Of a stretch of DNA of 64,000 nt, positions 48,783-57,667 are shown piece after piece. Made by a program: the position numbers and the translations under genes. Numbering within the stretch: the stretch's first letter is position 1; every line of letters starts with the position of its first letter. The notes below the pieces were generated by a model that was given only the letters and a program-made list of their open reading frames with translations, was not told the DNA's origin and searched no databases. The stretch lies in NCBI GenBank assembly GCA_019913005.1, contig JAIOHL010000182.1, forward strand, positions 1 to 64,000, read 5' to 3'. The stretch is from Anaerolineae bacterium. Its GTDB lineage: Bacteria > Chloroflexota > Anaerolineae > Aggregatilineales > J027.

Positions 48783-50981
48783 CTATGCCATAGTCTGTTC
48801 ACTGTAATAACGGATAAAGCGCTCAATTGCTTGGGGTTCCAACAGACGCCCCGGCGCGGTAATGCTATAGCTACTGGCCCACACCGACCCATAGACTTGG
48901 GGGTCTTGGCCTAGCGCCTCCAACAAATAGCGATTGGTCTCACCCATCAAGATGTCCATCATCTCGGCAGGCTGCGCTTTGACCGGAATTTCGATATGGA
49001 CATTTACCCAAAACTCCCCGACCATGACATCCACAAAATCCCAATCCTGTTCGCTGGCGACTTTTTGCAGCCAATAGCCGAGGGGTTCGCTGTAATCCAC
49101 TAAGCGGATATTCGGCGCCTGCAATAACCATAAACACGCAAAACCCGCGTAGCTTCCCGGTTCGCGCACATTCGGGCTAGGCTTCACATCGCGCAGTCCA
49201 GCAGGTGCTTTCAGATCAGTGGGGCGGCTGTGTTGGGTGGGAACATCTTCCTCAATAATCGTTGCTGCCTGTTCGACCATTTCAGGCGGGGCTGGCACAT
49301 GCACCTCATCCGTATGGGTAGTTTTCTCAGGAATCAGCATTAGGGCCTCGGTCAATTGGGCCACCTGCTTGCGAATCATGCGTACAGGCAGATCCCCGGA
49401 GAATACCAATGTCAGCGTCAGATCATCCACACTGCGCACACTGAACAACAGGCATTGTCCATAACCTTCCAGATGCAGATAACGCATTCGGGTATTATTT
49501 TCGCCCTCACGGTGCCATGCCATCAACACCGCTTGGACAATTTCGTGCCAAATATCGCTCGAAAAATTGCCCGTGCGCCCCACTGGGTAATCATGATGCG
49601 TCAGCAAAATCCCCAGCGCCGAGTTCTCCAACGAAAGCTGGGTGAGTTGTAGTGCGGCCCGTGCAATCACATCCATCTCGCCCAACATTTCCTCCACCGC
49701 CGCCTCATCAACGCGCAATAATTCAGTTTCGGGTAGAGTTGTCTCCGGATTTTGGTCGGACAGCACCATCGCCTGTGTAACGTCCTCTAAGGTGGTGGGA
49801 ACTAATTCAGCCTCATCTATCACCGTCTTCATGCTGTCGGTGCTGGTTTTGGAAAGCACTGCATATAAACGCGGATCTTCGTCACTTTCGGCTTCAGCAA
49901 GAGCTTCAAGTAGTTCCACATTGATTGGGCCAGAATCATGACTTGGCCCTTGCAACCATTCGATTTCTTCACGGGTCAACGGGTCGGGGAGCAAATCGAA
50001 TTCAGGGAGCAGAATGGGCTGGGTCACTGCAAGATACGGCGTCGTGTCATATTCTTTCGGTTCAAATAGGTCAGGGTCTATCGGTTGGAGGCGCTCCCCC
50101 GTTTTTTCTAATAATTCCTCAACCGTTGTTGGAGTGGGATGCAGCCCCTTCAGGAGTTCGCCCAGATAAGCCCTTTCTTCTTTGGTGCGCGGCTTTAACC
50201 ATGAGGGCAAGGGTCGAATTTGAGGCTGTCCGGTCTGCTGCGAAAGCTGTTCGATACGCATCAGGACTGTATCCAATGGCATAGCTTCATTTTCGGTAAT
50301 ACGCAGTGCCGCCGCTGCCATCAAGCCCATGTTTTTCCCTGACTCCACCGTCCGATTGGACAGCGGACTGACAGCGGATTCAGGTGAGGTGGGCAGCATC
50401 TGTTGACTTTCGTTGGCTTCGTGACCTCCCAAAATCTCCGCGACGACTGCCGGGTCTTGTAACAATTCTAGCACCCGCCCCACCGTAGCACCCTCCTCAA
50501 TCGGTGGTTCCGGGTCAATCGCTTGCATCATCGCGGCCTCAACCACCGTCTCGATTGGGACAACATTATCTCGACGGATAGAGGATTCATTGGCCTTGTT
50601 GCGTAGATTGGAGTAAAAATCATAGCCCTGTTTAATGGCGTGTTCAATCAATTGGGCTAAATCGCGTGCCACATAGGGTTTGTGGATGTATCCCTGTACA
50701 TCCAACGCCGGCACACGGTCAGGGTCACTGGGTGTACTACCCGACACGATAACGGGCAAATCTGGTTGGCGCACCCGCATCCCCAAAATGAGTTCGGCAG
50801 GGTCGCCATGTTCAAGGTGCAAATCCACCACCGCAACCGAATACCGCTGTTCATCGAGCGCCGAAAGGGCTGGACGTGAACGGCCCATAGCCCGGACATC
50901 AAAATCTAATTCCTCAAGGGCTTTTTTCAGCCGCAGAATAAACCCAATATCCGAATCTACAATCAAAACCCGCCGTGTCAT
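48783..50981 (-). CDS. Receiver-roadblock-like protein with degenerate Y1-transposase-like C-terminus
   Basis: The 732-residue protein starts at the ATG at 50981 (GAGG 8 nt upstream). Residues 1-120 are a receiver with Asp9/Asp11, phosphoacceptor Asp53 (VVDLHLEHG) and Lys101 (YIHKPY). A long acidic, helical, partly disordered region follows (~125-430). Residues ~440-555 resemble a roadblock/LC7 domain (ALGILLTHHDYPVGRTG ... DLTLTLVFSGDLPVRMIRKQ). Residues ~610-730 match the IS200/IS605 TnpA (Y1) fold: FWVNVHIEIPVKAQPAEMMD, then NRYLLE, then SVWASSYSITAPG, then QAIERFIRYYSEQ. The HUH motif reads N660-V-H662, and the catalytic Tyr position is Phe722, so DNA cleavage is not expected. It has no IS ends. 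I infer a domesticated nucleic-acid-binding output domain. Confidence 0.75.
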   Translation of the reverse strand: MTRRVLIVDSDIGFILRLKKALEELDFDVRAMGRSRPALSALDEQRYSVAVVDLHLEHGDPAELILGMRVRQPDLPVIVSGSTPSDPDRVPALDVQGYIHKPYVARDLAQLIEHAIKQGYDFYSNLRNKANESSIRRDNVVPIETVVEAAMMQAIDPEPPIEEGATVGRVLELLQDPAVVAEILGGHEANESQQMLPTSPESAVSPLSNRTVESGKNMGLMAAAALRITENEAMPLDTVLMRIEQLSQQTGQPQIRPLPSWLKPRTKEERAYLGELLKGLHPTPTTVEELLEKTGERLQPIDPDLFEPKEYDTTPYLAVTQPILLPEFDLLPDPLTREEIEWLQGPSHDSGPINVELLEALAEAESDEDPRLYAVLSKTSTDSMKTVIDEAELVPTTLEDVTQAMVLSDQNPETTLPETELLRVDEAAVEEMLGEMDVIARAALQLTQLSLENSALGILLTHHDYPVGRTGNFSSDIWHEIVQAVLMAWHREGENNTRMRYLHLEGYGQCLLFSVRSVDDLTLTLVFSGDLPVRMIRKQVAQLTEALMLIPEKTTHTDEVHVPAPPEMVEQAATIIEEDVPTQHSRPTDLKAPAGLRDVKPSPNVREPGSYAGFACLWLLQAPNIRLVDYSEPLGYWLQKVASEQDWDFVDVMVGEFWVNVHIEIPVKAQPAEMMDILMGETNRYLLEALGQDPQVYGSVWASSYSITAPGRLLEPQAIERFIRYYSEQTMA

Positions 50982-51171: not shown

Positions 51172-52935
51172 TTAGCCGCGAGCAGCCAACTTGGCAGCCA
51201 TATCAATGCTGTACGCACCCCAGTGAGCGCCGCCGAACAGGCCGTCGGTCTCAAATGGGCCAGTGTACCATGGCTTGAACAGGCTGAAGGCCGAGCGCAG
51301 GAAGATCGGGGCGATTGGGAATTCACCTTCTTCGCCGAAGAATGCTTCTTCAACTTCCGCATACAGTTGTTCACGGACAGCCGGGTCACTTTCGCGGGCA
51401 GCCTGATCAATCAGGTCGTCCACTTCGGTGCAGGGGCGCATGAAGTTGTAGTCAACATTGCAGGACAGCACGTCGTGTACCCAGTTGTTGGCGTCACCAT
51501 AGTCTGGACCCCAGCCGAGCGTCCAAGCATTCGGACGATCCTGTGTGGGGGTCTTGGAGTCAACGACTTCCAACAGAACCGAGAATTCCAGTTGTTCGGT
51601 GTTGAACAGCGCGGGATCGCAGCCAAGATATTCTTCAGCAGCGGCGGCCCAGAATTCAACCCATGTACCAGCGCCCGTGTAGGCGACGAGGTCAATGTTC
51701 GGGAAGCCTTCGCAGTTAGGATAACCAGCAGCTTCGAGTTCGGCAACCGCGTATTCGGGGTTGAAACCAACACCGACTTCATTGATGGGTGGCGCACCAG
51801 CCATACCGGGGGGGGTGAAGTGGATCATTGGCACACCACGACCACCACGAATTTGTTCCACAAACGCGGCGCGGTCAATGATGGCGCTGAAGGCACGGCG
51901 AGCGTTGATATTATCGAACGGCGCTTTGTCATGGGCATAGCCGAAATAGAACACGGCGAGGTCGAAGATCTGCAAAACTTGTTGAGACAGAACTGGGTCA
52001 TTCAACACGTTTTGGATTTCAGCAGTGGGTACAGCAGTCGCATCCAGTTGGTTGTCAAGGAAGAGGGCATAGGTCGTACCGCCGTCTTCAATGATGGTCT
52101 GGTTGATGACTTCGATGTTGCCGGTCCCGCTGAACAGGTCAGCCGGGAGGGCTTCATTACGCATAAACACGCGGCGCACGCCACGAGTAATTTCGTCAAC
52201 GAAGAATGGGCCATTGGTCACGATGTTGCCGGGGGCAGTCCATTCGTCACCGAATTCTTCAATGGCTTCCTGAGGTACAGGGCGGATCATCCACATGGGG
52301 GTCATGGACAGGAAGAAACCAGCCGCGAATTGCAGTTCAACCACGACGGTGGTGTCATCCGGGGCGCTAACCTTGGTGGTGTCGCCAAAAACGAGATCGT
52401 CAGTTACGGATTCACTGGCGGTCTGATTGACCACATCGCAACCCGCAATCACAGTCGCTGCAATGGAGCCATAGTAGCTGCCCAAACGGGGATCGCAAGC
52501 ACGCTTCATGCCGTACACAAAGTCACCTGCAACAACGGGGCGCACGACGGTGGCGGTATCGCTGGCCGGGTCCCACTTCATCCAGTTGACATCGGTGCGG
52601 AGGCTGAACGTCCAAGTCAAACCATCGGCGCTGGCTTCCCAAGTCGTCGCCAGTTCGGGTGTCACCGCGCTGGTGATGGGATCATAGTTGGTCAGGCCGA
52701 GGAACAGGTTTTCAATAGGGGTGATCGAAACAGTGTCCGACGCCAGAACCGGGTCGAGCGAGCTAATTTCGCTGCTGTCGGCGGTGTCACGGGTGACAGG
52801 TTCATCCTGACGATATTGAGCCGTAATGGTAATCTCGCTGTCGGCAGCGGCGGCGAAGCCGGTCGGCAGCAGAGCAACCACCATCGTCAGCACCACGGCG
52901 ACGACTGGGATCATCCGAAAGACTTTCTTTGACAT
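51172..52935 (-). CDS. Family-5 extracellular solute-binding protein, copy 1
   Basis: The 587-residue protein is an oligopeptide/dipeptide-type ABC binding protein (SBP_bac_5). The start at 52935 has AGGAGGAG 7 nt upstream. A signal peptide (MSKKVFRMIPVVAVVLTMVV ... AAA) has no lipobox. The mature part has ITAQYRQDEPVTRDTADSSE, the family segment PELATTWEASADGLTWTFSL, the interdomain GNIVTNGPFFVDEITRG, and a C-terminal KPWYTGPFETDGLFGG. Cys pairs (AGCDVVN, NCEGFPN, LGCDPALF, LSCNVD, RPCTEVDD) recur in all copies. No permease or ATPase gene is in view. A long leader with an operator-like palindrome precedes it. Confidence 0.92.
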   Translation of the reverse strand: MSKKVFRMIPVVAVVLTMVVALLPTGFAAAADSEITITAQYRQDEPVTRDTADSSEISSLDPVLASDTVSITPIENLFLGLTNYDPITSAVTPELATTWEASADGLTWTFSLRTDVNWMKWDPASDTATVVRPVVAGDFVYGMKRACDPRLGSYYGSIAATVIAGCDVVNQTASESVTDDLVFGDTTKVSAPDDTTVVVELQFAAGFFLSMTPMWMIRPVPQEAIEEFGDEWTAPGNIVTNGPFFVDEITRGVRRVFMRNEALPADLFSGTGNIEVINQTIIEDGGTTYALFLDNQLDATAVPTAEIQNVLNDPVLSQQVLQIFDLAVFYFGYAHDKAPFDNINARRAFSAIIDRAAFVEQIRGGRGVPMIHFTPPGMAGAPPINEVGVGFNPEYAVAELEAAGYPNCEGFPNIDLVAYTGAGTWVEFWAAAAEEYLGCDPALFNTEQLEFSVLLEVVDSKTPTQDRPNAWTLGWGPDYGDANNWVHDVLSCNVDYNFMRPCTEVDDLIDQAARESDPAVREQLYAEVEEAFFGEEGEFPIAPIFLRSAFSLFKPWYTGPFETDGLFGGAHWGAYSIDMAAKLAARG

Positions 52936-53338
52936 TTTTAAGCTCCTCCTAGAGAGCATCTTAAAACTTTTTTTGTATTCAACTCATCATTGGTCCGGAT
53001 TTATCCGGGTTTGTCCGGCCTTCTGCCCCGGCAGCATGGGTAGGGCGTCGAGTGCGGCTGTTGCTCCTTTCTTAAAACCATTGGTGCTTGGCTTCCAATG
53101 CGTTGTACATGCTTACTTGCCAGGACAAGTCAAGGATACAACCAGTTGGGTTGGGGACTCTTTGTGGAGAAAGGGAGTGTTTGGGGAGTTGGAATGGAAA
53201 GAGGACAACAAGCTGTCTCTGCAATCCCAAAATGAACTTTCCGTGACCCCATCAAAATAACTATTTCTCACAAAAGTAGGAAGCACAAGTCCACTAAATT
53301 TAAATTTGTACTACAGGACTCACTCGATGCTGATATAA
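52936..53338 (-). promoter_or_regulatory. Long 5' leader of binding-protein copy 1
   Basis: No gene is seen in this ~400-nt stretch, which lies between the predicted transcription start and the ATG. It contains TCCGG three times at 10-nt intervals (52994, 53004, 53014). It also has TCCGG-N5-TGCCCCGG-GCATG and TCGAGTGCGG elements (53014-53057, plus strand) that recur in the leader of copy 3. The role is unknown; RNA regulation is possible. Confidence 0.5.
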
Positions 53339-53368
53339 ATTATAGCGATGTACACCGCTAGAATGCAA
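53339..53368 (-). promoter_or_regulatory. Promoter of binding-protein copy 1 with operator-like palindrome
   Basis: On the minus strand, TTGCAT (53363-53368) and TATAAT (53339-53344) are 18 nt apart. The spacer is almost filled by the near-perfect palindrome TAGCGATGTACACCGCTA (53343-53360), an ideal position for a repressor. Confidence 0.6.
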
Positions 53369-53501
53369 ATGGTTCGCCAGATTAGAGATTTTTAATCTTG
53401 ATCATTTTTTAATGAAAGCCTTAATTTAAGCCATAAACTGAATGATGTGAAGATTTATTTTGCATCAACCTTACGAATTGAAAAAAAGTATAGCCAATAA
53501 A

Positions 53502-53533
53502 AATCCCCTCCACCAATCAATGGCGAGGGGATT
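53502..53533 (-). terminator. Terminator after binding-protein copy 2
   Basis: AATCCCCTC (53502-53510) and GAGGGGATT (53525-53533) form a perfect 9-bp stem. On the minus strand it runs into TTTATT. Confidence 0.85.
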
Positions 53534-53570
53534 GTGTGGTAGGATTAAACCCACCCGTTGTTATGATCGG

Positions 53571-55349
53571 TTATTCACCACGCGCTGCTAACTTGGCTGC
53601 CATATCAATGCTATACGCACCCCAATGTGGGCCACCAAACAACCCGTCGCTTTCAAATGGGCCAGTGTACCACGACTTAATCAAGTTGAAGCTAGTATCC
53701 ATGAAGATAGGTGCAATGGGGTAGTCCCCCTCTGGCCCAAAGAAGGCTTCTTCAATTTCAGCATACAGTTGATCACGCACCGTCGGGTCAGATTCACGCG
53801 CTGCCTCGTTAATGAGGTCGTCTACTTCGGTGCAGGAGCGCATAAAGGCATTATCGGCGGTGCAGGACAACACGTCATTCACCCAGTTGTTGGCGTCGCC
53901 ATAATCTGGCCCCCACCCCAAGGTCCAAGCGTTGGGGCGGTCTTGGGTTGGTGTATCAGCATCAATAATTTCTAACAGCACCGAAAATTCAAGCTGCTCG
54001 ACATTAAACAAGGAGGGGTCACAGCCGAGATATTCCTCAGCCGCCGATGCCCAAAAGTCGGCCCAATTGCCAGCCCCGGTATAGGTTGCCATATTGACAT
54101 TCGGGAAACCTTCGCAGTTGGGATAGCCCGCTGCTTCCATTTCGGCCTTCGCATATTCGGGGTCAAACCCAACACCAATTTCGTTGATAGGCGGAGCATG
54201 AGCCATACCGGGCGGAGTAAAGTGAATCATCGGAATGGCACTACCACCCAAGACCTGATCAATAAAGGCTTGACGGTCAATCACCGCCCCAAAAGCACGC
54301 CGCGCATGTTCATTATCAAACGGCGCTTTGTCATGACCAAAGGCGAAATAGAAGACCGAGAGGGCAAAAATCTGAATCACCTCTTGGGAAAGTTCGGGAT
54401 CCCCCAGAATATTTTGCAGTTCCGCCGAAGGCACCAAGGAAGCATCCAGTTGATTATTGAGATAGAGCGAATAGATCGTGCCGCCGTCTTCAATCACCTG
54501 CTGATTAATGATCTCAATATTGCCCGTGCCGCTAAACAGATCGGCGGGTAGATTTTCATTCCGGATGAATACACGTCGAACGCCACGAGTCAGTTCATCT
54601 ACTACATAGGGGCCATTCGTCACAATGTTACCGGGGGCTGTCCATTCATCACCAAATTCCTCAATGACTTCCTGTGGCACGGCACGGAGCATCCACATGG
54701 GGGTCATCGAGAAGAAAAAGCCTGCTGCAAATTGCAATTGGACTACGAGTGTTGTGTCATCAGGCGCACTCACCGCAATCGTATCGCCATAAACTAGATC
54801 ATCCGTCACTAACTCAGTGGGTGTCTGATTAACCACATCACAACCCTTGATGACCTTCGCGGAAATCGTGCCGTAATAACCGCCGAGACGAGGGTCGCAG
54901 CCGCGTTTAATGCCATACACAAAATCGCTTGCGACCACCGGACGAACAATGGTTGCGCTGTCACTGGCTGGGTCCCAACGTAGCCAATTGACATCGGTGC
55001 GCAGGTTGAATGTCCACGTCACATTGTCGGGTGCAATCGTCCATGAGGAAGCCACTTCCGGATTGACCGCGCTGGTAATGGGGTCATAGTCCGTCAGGCC
55101 GAGAAATAGATTCTCGATAGGGGCAATCGAAATTTGATCCGAAGCAATCTGTGGGTCAAGGGAGCTAATTTCGCTGCTTGCCGCCGTGTCACGCTGCACG
55201 GGGACATTTTGGCGATAAAGCGCGACCACGGTGACTTCCGCATCACTGGCCGATGCGAAACCGACGGGCAACATTGCCGCGACTAGGGCCAACACCAGTA
55301 ATAAAGCTGGCATTAGTCTAACCACTCTTTTTACCACTTCTCTATTCAT
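53571..55349 (-). CDS. Family-5 extracellular solute-binding protein, copy 2
   Basis: The 592-residue paralogue has AGGAG 7 nt before its ATG. The signal peptide (VVRLMPALLLVLALVAAMLP ... ASA) has no lipobox. Its body follows copies 1 and 3 almost without gaps: SSEISSLDPQIASDQISIAP, PIENLFLGLTDYDPITSAV, WTAPGNIVTNGPYVVDELTR, ESDGLFGGPHWGAY. It differs most in WTIAPDNVTWTFNLR and in PSAELQNILGDPELSQEVIQ, both outside the shared framework, so ligand preference may differ. It has its own short-leader promoter and a terminator. Confidence 0.92.
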   Translation of the reverse strand: MNREVVKRVVRLMPALLLVLALVAAMLPVGFASASDAEVTVVALYRQNVPVQRDTAASSEISSLDPQIASDQISIAPIENLFLGLTDYDPITSAVNPEVASSWTIAPDNVTWTFNLRTDVNWLRWDPASDSATIVRPVVASDFVYGIKRGCDPRLGGYYGTISAKVIKGCDVVNQTPTELVTDDLVYGDTIAVSAPDDTTLVVQLQFAAGFFFSMTPMWMLRAVPQEVIEEFGDEWTAPGNIVTNGPYVVDELTRGVRRVFIRNENLPADLFSGTGNIEIINQQVIEDGGTIYSLYLNNQLDASLVPSAELQNILGDPELSQEVIQIFALSVFYFAFGHDKAPFDNEHARRAFGAVIDRQAFIDQVLGGSAIPMIHFTPPGMAHAPPINEIGVGFDPEYAKAEMEAAGYPNCEGFPNVNMATYTGAGNWADFWASAAEEYLGCDPSLFNVEQLEFSVLLEIIDADTPTQDRPNAWTLGWGPDYGDANNWVNDVLSCTADNAFMRSCTEVDDLINEAARESDPTVRDQLYAEIEEAFFGPEGDYPIAPIFMDTSFNLIKSWYTGPFESDGLFGGPHWGAYSIDMAAKLAARGE

Positions 55350-55385
55350 GGGTTCTCTCCTAAAAATACTAAAGAATCACGAAAA

Positions 55386-55414
55386 ATTGTACTGGATACC
55401 ACAATTTGGCACAA
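55386..55414 (-). promoter_or_regulatory. Promoter of binding-protein copy 2
   Basis: On the minus strand TTGTGC (55409-55414) and TACAAT (55386-55391) are 17 nt apart, giving a leader of about 30 nt. This contrasts with the long leaders of copies 1 and 3. Confidence 0.5.
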
Positions 55415-55464
55415 AAGGTTCAATTCATTTAAGGTTTTCTCATAATGTGAAACATCCGTAAAAA

Positions 55465-55509
55465 CACCAATCCCCCCGATGTAGCAAATCGCACGCGGAG
55501 GGATTGGTG
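55465..55509 (-). terminator. Terminator after binding-protein copy 3
   Basis: CACCAATCCCCCCG (55465-55478) and CGGAGGGATTGGTG (55496-55509) form a 14-bp stem with one mismatch, followed on the minus strand by TTTTT. Confidence 0.9.
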
Positions 55510-55578
55510 GTTAGAGTCCCCTACCCTGCCGTCATCATCTAAAGGCGATGGCAGGGCTAGGGAATCACTTAGACTAAG

Positions 55579-57345
55579 TTATTCACCGCGTGCTGCCAAC
55601 TTCGCAGCCATGTCAATGTTGTAGGCACCCCAGTGAGCGCCACCAAAGAGGCCGTCGCTCTCAAATGGGCCGGTGTACCACGGTTTCACCAATGTGAAGA
55701 ACGAACGCAGATAGATCGGGGCAATCGGGTATTCACCTTCTGCGCCAAAGAACGATGCTTCGATCTCGGCATACAGTTGGTCACGTACCGCCGGATCACT
55801 TTCGGCAGCGGCCTGATTAATCAGGTCGTCTACTTCGGTGCAGGGACGCAGGAAGGCGTTGTCGGAGGTGCAGGACAGCACATCGTTCACCCAGTTGTTG
55901 GCATCACCATAGTCGGGACCCCAGCCGAGCGTCCAAGCATTCGGGCGATCCTGCGTGGGGGTGTTGGGATCAACGATTTCCAACAACACGGAGAATTCAA
56001 GTTGTTCAACATTCAACAACGATGGGTCACAGCCGAGATATTCTTCAGCCGCTGCTGCCCAGAAGTCTGTCCATGTACCAGCACCCTGATAAGCGACCAT
56101 ATCAATCGCTGGGAAGCCTTCGCAGTTCGGATACCCGGCTGCTTCCATTTCGGCGACGGCATATTCGGGGTCAAACCCAACACCAACTGAATTAATGGCG
56201 GGGGCATGGGCCATGCCGGGTGGGGTAAAGTGAATCATCGGCACACCGCGACCAGCCAACACCTGCTCAATGAACGCTTGGCGATCAATGATGGCACTGA
56301 AAGCACGACGCGCGTGAACATTGTCAAAGGGGGCTTTGTCATGACCAAAACCGAAATAGAACACGGTCAGGTCAAAGATTTGCAGCACTTCTTGGGACAA
56401 TGTGGGGTCAGACAACACATTTTGGATTTCTGCCGCAGGCACACCGGAACTGTCGAGTTGGCTGTTTTGATACAGCGCGTAGATTGTACCGGCGTCTTCA
56501 ATCACGGTGGTGTTGATGACTTCTACATTGCCAGTACCGCTGAACAGGTCCGCAGGCAGGGCTTCGTTGCGAACATACACACGCCGCACCCCACGAGTAA
56601 TTTCTTGCACAAAGAATGGGCCGTTCGACACGATATTGCCGGGGGCGGTCCATTCGTCACCGAATTCTTCAATGACTTCTTGTGGGACAGCACGCAGCAT
56701 CCACATGGGGGTCATGGAAAAGAAATAACCAGCGGCGAATTGCAGTTCGACCACGAGGGTCACGTCATCGGGGGCGCTGACGGCAATAGTTTCACCGTAA
56801 ACGAGATCATCCGTAACGTTTTCGGCAACCGTTTGGTTGACCACATCGCAGCCCTTGATGACCTTAGCGGAAATCGTACCGTAATAACCACCCAAACGGG
56901 GATCGCAGCCGCGCTTAATGCCATAGACAAGATCGCCTGCCACAACTGGGCGCACGACAGCGGCGGTTTCGGTTGCCGGGTCATAACGCATCCAATTGAC
57001 ATCACTGCGCAGATTGAACGTCCATACCAAACCGTCGGCGCTCACTTCCCATGAAGTCGCCAATTCGGGGTTAATCGCGCTGGTGATTGGGTCATAGTCT
57101 GTCAGGCCCAAAAACAGATTTTCAACCGGGATGATCGAAACGCTGTCTGAAATGATCGCTGGGTCAAGGGAGCTAATTTCGCTCTGGCTTGCCCCGTCAA
57201 TCGTAACAGGCGTATCCTGACGATATTGGGCCACAACTGTAACAGTGGCATCTTCCGCAGCCGCAAAGCCCGTCGGAAGTAATGCAACCACCAGTGTCAG
57301 CACAATCGCTGCGACTGGGATGAGTCGAAAAGTGGATTTAGACAT
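55579..57345 (-). CDS. Family-5 extracellular solute-binding protein, copy 3
   Basis: The 588-residue paralogue is closest to copy 1 at its start (MSKSTFRLIPVAAIVLTLVV, cleavage at FAAA-ED). AGGAGG 7 nt upstream of 57345 decides the start. It carries the shared framework (SEISSLDPAIISDSVSI, PVENLFLGLTDYDPITSAI, GVGFDPEYAVAEMEAAGYPN, EEYLGCDPSLLNVEQLEFSV). Its long leader shares motifs with copy 1. It has a strong terminator. A peptide or other oligomer ligand is likely, but the sequence does not show which. Confidence 0.92.
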   Translation of the reverse strand: MSKSTFRLIPVAAIVLTLVVALLPTGFAAAEDATVTVVAQYRQDTPVTIDGASQSEISSLDPAIISDSVSIIPVENLFLGLTDYDPITSAINPELATSWEVSADGLVWTFNLRSDVNWMRYDPATETAAVVRPVVAGDLVYGIKRGCDPRLGGYYGTISAKVIKGCDVVNQTVAENVTDDLVYGETIAVSAPDDVTLVVELQFAAGYFFSMTPMWMLRAVPQEVIEEFGDEWTAPGNIVSNGPFFVQEITRGVRRVYVRNEALPADLFSGTGNVEVINTTVIEDAGTIYALYQNSQLDSSGVPAAEIQNVLSDPTLSQEVLQIFDLTVFYFGFGHDKAPFDNVHARRAFSAIIDRQAFIEQVLAGRGVPMIHFTPPGMAHAPAINSVGVGFDPEYAVAEMEAAGYPNCEGFPAIDMVAYQGAGTWTDFWAAAAEEYLGCDPSLLNVEQLEFSVLLEIVDPNTPTQDRPNAWTLGWGPDYGDANNWVNDVLSCTSDNAFLRPCTEVDDLINQAAAESDPAVRDQLYAEIEASFFGAEGEYPIAPIYLRSFFTLVKPWYTGPFESDGLFGGAHWGAYNIDMAAKLAARGE

Positions 57346-57667
57346 TTTGGCCCCTCCTGGAGAGCGCAATTTATCTTAAGAATCGAATTTTTTGGGTGGG
57401 TTCATCCGGTCAGTTGCCCCGGAAAGCATGTCGAAAGGGTGGCAGCATAGATTTCTCCTGATTGTGAATGGGTCTCGCATCGGGTGCGGTTTTACACAAC
57501 ATATACATGGGGGACAGTTTGGAAGTTCAAGGAATTTTTGAGGGAATCGCATCGAGCGAATTCGGTTCCTAGAAACAAGCCTTGTTTCCAAACCGCACAC
57601 CCGTCAAGTGAATTGCAGGGCAACCCAATGGGATGTTGTTAAAAACTCACTGATGCCATTAATGAAG
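57346..57667 (-). promoter_or_regulatory. Long 5' leader of binding-protein copy 3
   Basis: No gene is seen here. On the plus strand, TCCGG (57405), TGCCCCGG (57415-57422), GCATG (57426) and TCGGGTGCGG (~57480-57489) repeat elements of the copy 1 leader in the same order, although the surrounding sequence has diverged. Confidence 0.5.

Follow-up and report, generated by a model that had tools for sequence, protein, structure and literature searches.

A domain homologous to TnpA of the IS200/IS605 elements forms the C-terminus of a 732-residue protein encoded in the window, by which we mean the whole stretch of 64,000 nucleotides that was analysed. The domain lacks the catalytic residues of TnpA, is under strong purifying selection, and belongs to a family that is inherited vertically in the class Anaerolineae. 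Along the protein it is preceded by a receiver (REC) domain, a linker of about 310 residues, and an MglB-type roadblock domain. The finding means that strong selection can preserve a dead Y1 domain as part of a signalling-type protein throughout much of a bacterial class. The reading we favour, with middling confidence, is that of a non-catalytic scaffold, in which the dead TnpA fold would serve as a docking module and be combined with REC and roadblock domains through flexible linkers.

The features of the gene are as follows.

48783..50981, minus strand: whole gene, 732 aa plus stop; ATG at 50981, with which the ortholog starts agree
50628..50972, minus strand: REC (receiver) domain, residues 4-118; Pfam Response_reg E=1.2e-10
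50823..50825, minus strand: phospho-acceptor Asp53; D in 65/69 aligned rows
49680..50621, minus strand: long linker, residues 121-434, rich in P/E/D/S/T (42%), probably disordered
49317..49679, minus strand: roadblock domain (MglB/LC7-type), residues 435-555; AF2 model against roadblock structures, Z 10-12
49155..49316, minus strand: second linker, residues 556-609, which contains a motif of the SRPTDL(K/R) type; family alignment
48786..49154, minus strand: Y1/TnpA-like domain, residues 610-732, acidic, without catalytic residues; profile and fold
49002..49010, minus strand: lost HUH position, Trp658-Val659-Asn660; alignments to TnpA and to true Y1 proteins of the same genome
48816..48818, minus strand: Phe722 at the catalytic Tyr position; F in 64/87 family members

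Receiver and roadblock domains

The Response_reg match covers residues 5-112. Asp53 and Lys101, which an earlier note on this DNA had picked out as receiver motifs, are both present, and so are Asp9 and Asp11. Phosphorylation of the receiver is therefore plausible for the 732-residue protein, judging from these residues, yet it does not appear to be general across the family. In a fuller set of relatives the Asp53 column is occupied by A, G or S in nine, and only about 30 of 84 have all or nearly all of the acidic pair, the Asp and the Lys; the remaining receivers are without the acidic pair, without the Asp, or without the Lys. Because most relatives have lost at least one key residue, phosphorylation as a universal input is doubtful.

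The roadblock domain is recognised by its fold. Residues 5-126 of a 303-residue model match MglB, Ragulator subunits and archaeal roadblock proteins at Z 10-12, which bears out the roadblock-like domain suggested in the earlier note. The profile of a 23-member family alignment matches MglB weakly (E=0.07). The fold is thus shared with MglB and other Roadblock/LC7 proteins, but in this family it lies within a multidomain chain and is missed by Pfam Robl_LC7, which matches neither the 732-residue protein nor any of the 23 aligned members. The linker that separates REC from roadblock ranges from 5 to 1010 aa in relatives, with P, E, D, S and T abundant. The second linker carries a motif of approximately T-x-P-S-R-P-T-D-L-R-x-P-E-G-L in otherwise variable sequence, and a looser SRPT-like pattern occurs in 30 of 87 members.

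Small Ras-like GTPases are the usual partners of roadblock domains. Among the neighbours scanned, neither a small GTPase nor a kinase was recognised next to the gene; that no adjacent GTPase was seen is a further difference from MglB. Two small Ras-like GTPases (L130, L131) are encoded elsewhere in the same genome and are candidate roadblock partners; one is preceded by a DUF4388 protein and the other by an apparent OmpR-type response regulator.

Alternatively, the protein could unite the roles of RomR and MglB in one chain and govern a small Ras-like GTPase in cell polarity, motility or growth. The MglB-like roadblock fold, the RomR-like combination of REC and disordered linker, the two GTPases in the genome, and the location of the gene near a PBP2 gene in its own lineage all agree with such a role. 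However, neither GTPase adjoins the gene, the genome also has separate stand-alone roadblock proteins, and the most widespread neighbour of the family genes is polA rather than a polarity gene. We consider this explanation somewhat unlikely. RomR of Myxococcus xanthus is the nearest functional precedent for a REC domain with a disordered linker and roadblock partners (PMC12719032), and as such it also speaks for the scaffold reading. It shares the REC domain and the long disordered linker, it is linked to roadblock proteins, and it binds one of them, MglC, through its C-terminal helix (PMC12719032). Unlike the 732-residue protein, RomR itself has no roadblock or Y1 domain. Similarly, archaeal response regulators with NitrOD3 have a roadblock-related output domain (PMC5847659), but no Y1-like domain has been described in them.

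The TnpA-like domain and the loss of its catalytic residues

Pfam Y1_Tnp is sub-threshold against the whole protein (E=0.013), and against the last 132 residues alone the model (PF01797) gives E=5e-4, still short of the Pfam cut-off. The profile search proposed in the earlier note thus stays below threshold for the single protein, but it succeeds for the family, as all 23 members of the alignment match Y1_Tnp, the best at 2.3e-10. In turn, the profile built from these 23 members matches experimental TnpA structures at E-values between 1.6e-15 and 4e-7, including 2f4f (1.6e-15), 2ec2 (3e-14), ISDra2 2xo6 (2.9e-12) and ISHp608 2vhg (3e-7). Structure prediction with a fold search, proposed together with the profile search, gave the same answer. 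The model of residues 610-732 (pLDDT 94.3, pTM 0.87) has TnpA chains as its top matches at Z 13.6-15.4, with the next unrelated fold at 9.1, and Foldseek aligns it to TnpA with TM of about 0.65-0.75; most of the TnpA structure matches leave unaligned the final helix, which bears the Tyr position. The C-terminal domain is homologous to IS200/IS605 TnpA, with which it shares the fold, the order of strands and helices, the W-x-x-x-Y and P motifs, and a C-terminal helix with the Tyr position. It differs in having no HUH, in having mostly Phe for Tyr, and in being fused to REC and roadblock domains. The comparison with RAYT structures, also suggested beforehand, yields a weaker match (4er8, Z 8.3). 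TnpA-REP or RAYT proteins are likewise domesticated Y1 proteins kept by the host, yet they retain HUH and Tyr and process REP hairpins, whereas the present family is without HUH.

In profile alignments the Asp-His-hydrophobic-His of TnpA falls on Phe657-Trp658-Val659-Asn660. The HUH position had earlier been placed at Asn660-Val-His662, which the profile alignment rules out: this is two residues too late, the His columns being Trp658 and Asn660, and His662 stands in a variable column. The assignment of Phe722 to the position of the catalytic Tyr, on the other hand, agrees with the profile alignment. Both HUH histidines are kept in none of the 87 family members. Most of them have Tyr, Phe or Trp in the first His column, and the second His column varies. 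The Tyr column reads F in 64 members, Y in 15 and L in 5, and the Tyr-retaining members belong mostly to the f9/f12 clade. The Y1-like domain presumably cuts no DNA. A survey of TnpA-Y1 proteins set aside sequences lacking the core motifs as probably non-functional (PMC6006769).

The charge of the domain bears on what it may bind. In the 732-residue protein the Y1-like domain has a net charge of -9 and a pI of 4.3, and members of its own order (n=68) have medians of -8 and 4.6. For the sister f9/f12 clade (n=16) the medians are +4.5 and 9.4, and for true Y1 proteins (n=16) they are +6 and 9.3. The earlier note had proposed that the dead domain is an output module, controlled by REC, that binds DNA or RNA hairpins without cutting them. 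TnpA does bind hairpins, in the f9/f12 clade the domain is basic and mostly keeps the Tyr, and one f9 member (L069) even clears the curated IS200 cut-offs; hairpin binding is possible in that clade, as far as composition can tell. For the 732-residue protein, however, the proposal finds no support, since so strongly acidic a domain is unlikely to bind nucleic acid, and the frequent loss of key REC residues also weighs against control by the receiver. A local basic patch on the acidic domain is possible and compatible with the net charge figures. All considered, we judge a hairpin-binding output unlikely. Rather, the reversal of net charge within the own order makes protein docking the most likely role of the domain there, and such a module would probably dimerise. 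The basic and acidic clades offer a direct test of functional change in a transposase fold.

Two proteins of the f9 clade, L069 (542 aa) and L074, score above the Pfam cut-off for Y1_Tnp, as L069 does for the curated NCBIfam cut-off for IS200 transposases. Non-mobile proteins of this kind are therefore liable to be annotated as transposases.

Descent and selection

A search of 100 related genomes gave orthologues with 79-96% identity within the genus and lower identity across the order. With the 23-row profile and a threshold of E<=1e-15, the family is present in 104 of the 121 genomes examined from the order (75 of the 83 of high quality), usually in one copy; family f3 had no match in its nine sampled genomes. 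A scan of public genomes with the family alignment returned 22 loci, all in Chloroflexota MAGs. Throughout the phylum, only the class Anaerolineae gave matches that extend over the roadblock domain. The other matches cover the Y1 part and are mostly short frames, and those examined are ordinary Y1 transposases with HUH intact. Genome G016 has two copies (L096, L097), one of which splits REC and roadblock-Y1 between separate reading frames.

The Y1-like domain has a dN/dS of about 0.03-0.045 within the genus, similar to the values for the REC and roadblock domains and below that of the linkers. When 84 family domains are placed in one tree with 16 true Y1 proteins, built on an alignment of only 130 columns and rooted for drawing, one well-supported branch divides the two sets, and the clades of the Y1-like domain follow the genome families. 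One separating branch, together with clades that track genome families, fits a single domestication followed by vertical descent. IS200/IS605 elements are set apart by mobility, whereas here there is usually one copy per genome, the tree tracks taxonomy, and the domain is acidic in the own order. That a TnpA fold has been domesticated in a signalling-type protein with loss of catalysis, the central proposal of the earlier note, is upheld by the universal loss of HUH, the low dN/dS and the separate branch. The same observations contradict the view that the domain is a transposase still active or only recently fused, or else a relic in decay; although Pfam and NCBIfam name it a transposase, we attach almost no weight to this view.

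Gene neighbourhood and proposed role

Of the 86 members for which 350 bp or more of sequence is available downstream, 44 have polA directly downstream on the same strand, the median gap being about 95 bp. The arrangement is found in nine families (f1, f2, f4, f5, f8, f9, f12, f17 and f19), a tally that includes L032 of f1, whose downstream sequence falls slightly short of 350 bp. The f17 and f19 proteins (L077 and L081) abut polA and consist of REC and roadblock without the Y1-like domain. This suggests that REC-roadblock may be the older core; the alternative is that the Y1 domain was lost. REC-roadblock proteins without the Y1-like domain, of 268-323 aa, occur in other families of the class (L077, L081, L147, L150, L152).

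Gene order with polA, a purely positional link, raises the possibility that the family is connected with DNA replication or repair. The protein could be a replication or repair accessory that acts with DNA polymerase I and is anchored to the replication machinery by its dead TnpA domain. The same-strand order in nine families, including proteins without Y1, is consistent with this. A further point in favour is the binding of the beta clamp that has been suggested for TnpA of IS608, in the vicinity of the TnpA C-terminus (PMC6006769). As a sign of such a link the clamp-binding motif QL[SD]LF was sought and rejected, being essentially absent (1 of 89). Furthermore, gene order can be coincidental, as exemplified by phoPR-polA of Bacillus subtilis. 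In the genus of the 732-residue protein the gene has gdhA and a PBP2 gene as neighbours, and polA is on another contig, so the linkage to polA is not indispensable. We find an accessory role of this kind improbable. A bolder version, in which a transposase became a catalytically inactive component of a signalling scaffold that operates alongside DNA polymerase I at replication forks, and in which one order changed it from a nucleic-acid binder to an acidic form that binds proteins or mimics DNA, appears to us more doubtful still. Nevertheless, long retention and the adjacency to polA in about half of the relatives make it probable that the Y1-like domain has a genuine non-cutting role.

In the scaffold that we favour, the roadblock domain would probably provide a second interaction surface beside the docking Y1-like domain, and REC, where it retains its key residues, would supply an input by conformation or phosphorylation. 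Taken singly, domesticated Y1 proteins, dead enzyme domains and output domains related to roadblock have precedents. In the open-licence papers searched no described REC-Y1 or REC-roadblock-Y1 protein was found, in line with the earlier note, whose author knew of no regulator of such a type. What is new relative to the literature searched is a dead Y1 domain retained by selection in a REC-roadblock protein that is widespread in a class and often encoded next to polA.

The surroundings of the gene in its own genus show two further arrangements. After the PBP2 gene come two genes similar to mreD and mreC, as judged by size and order alone. In the window, the gene adjoins a minus-strand run (51172-57369 and beyond) of about five paralogues in tandem, each about 590 aa long, that resemble peptide- or solute-binding ABC proteins.
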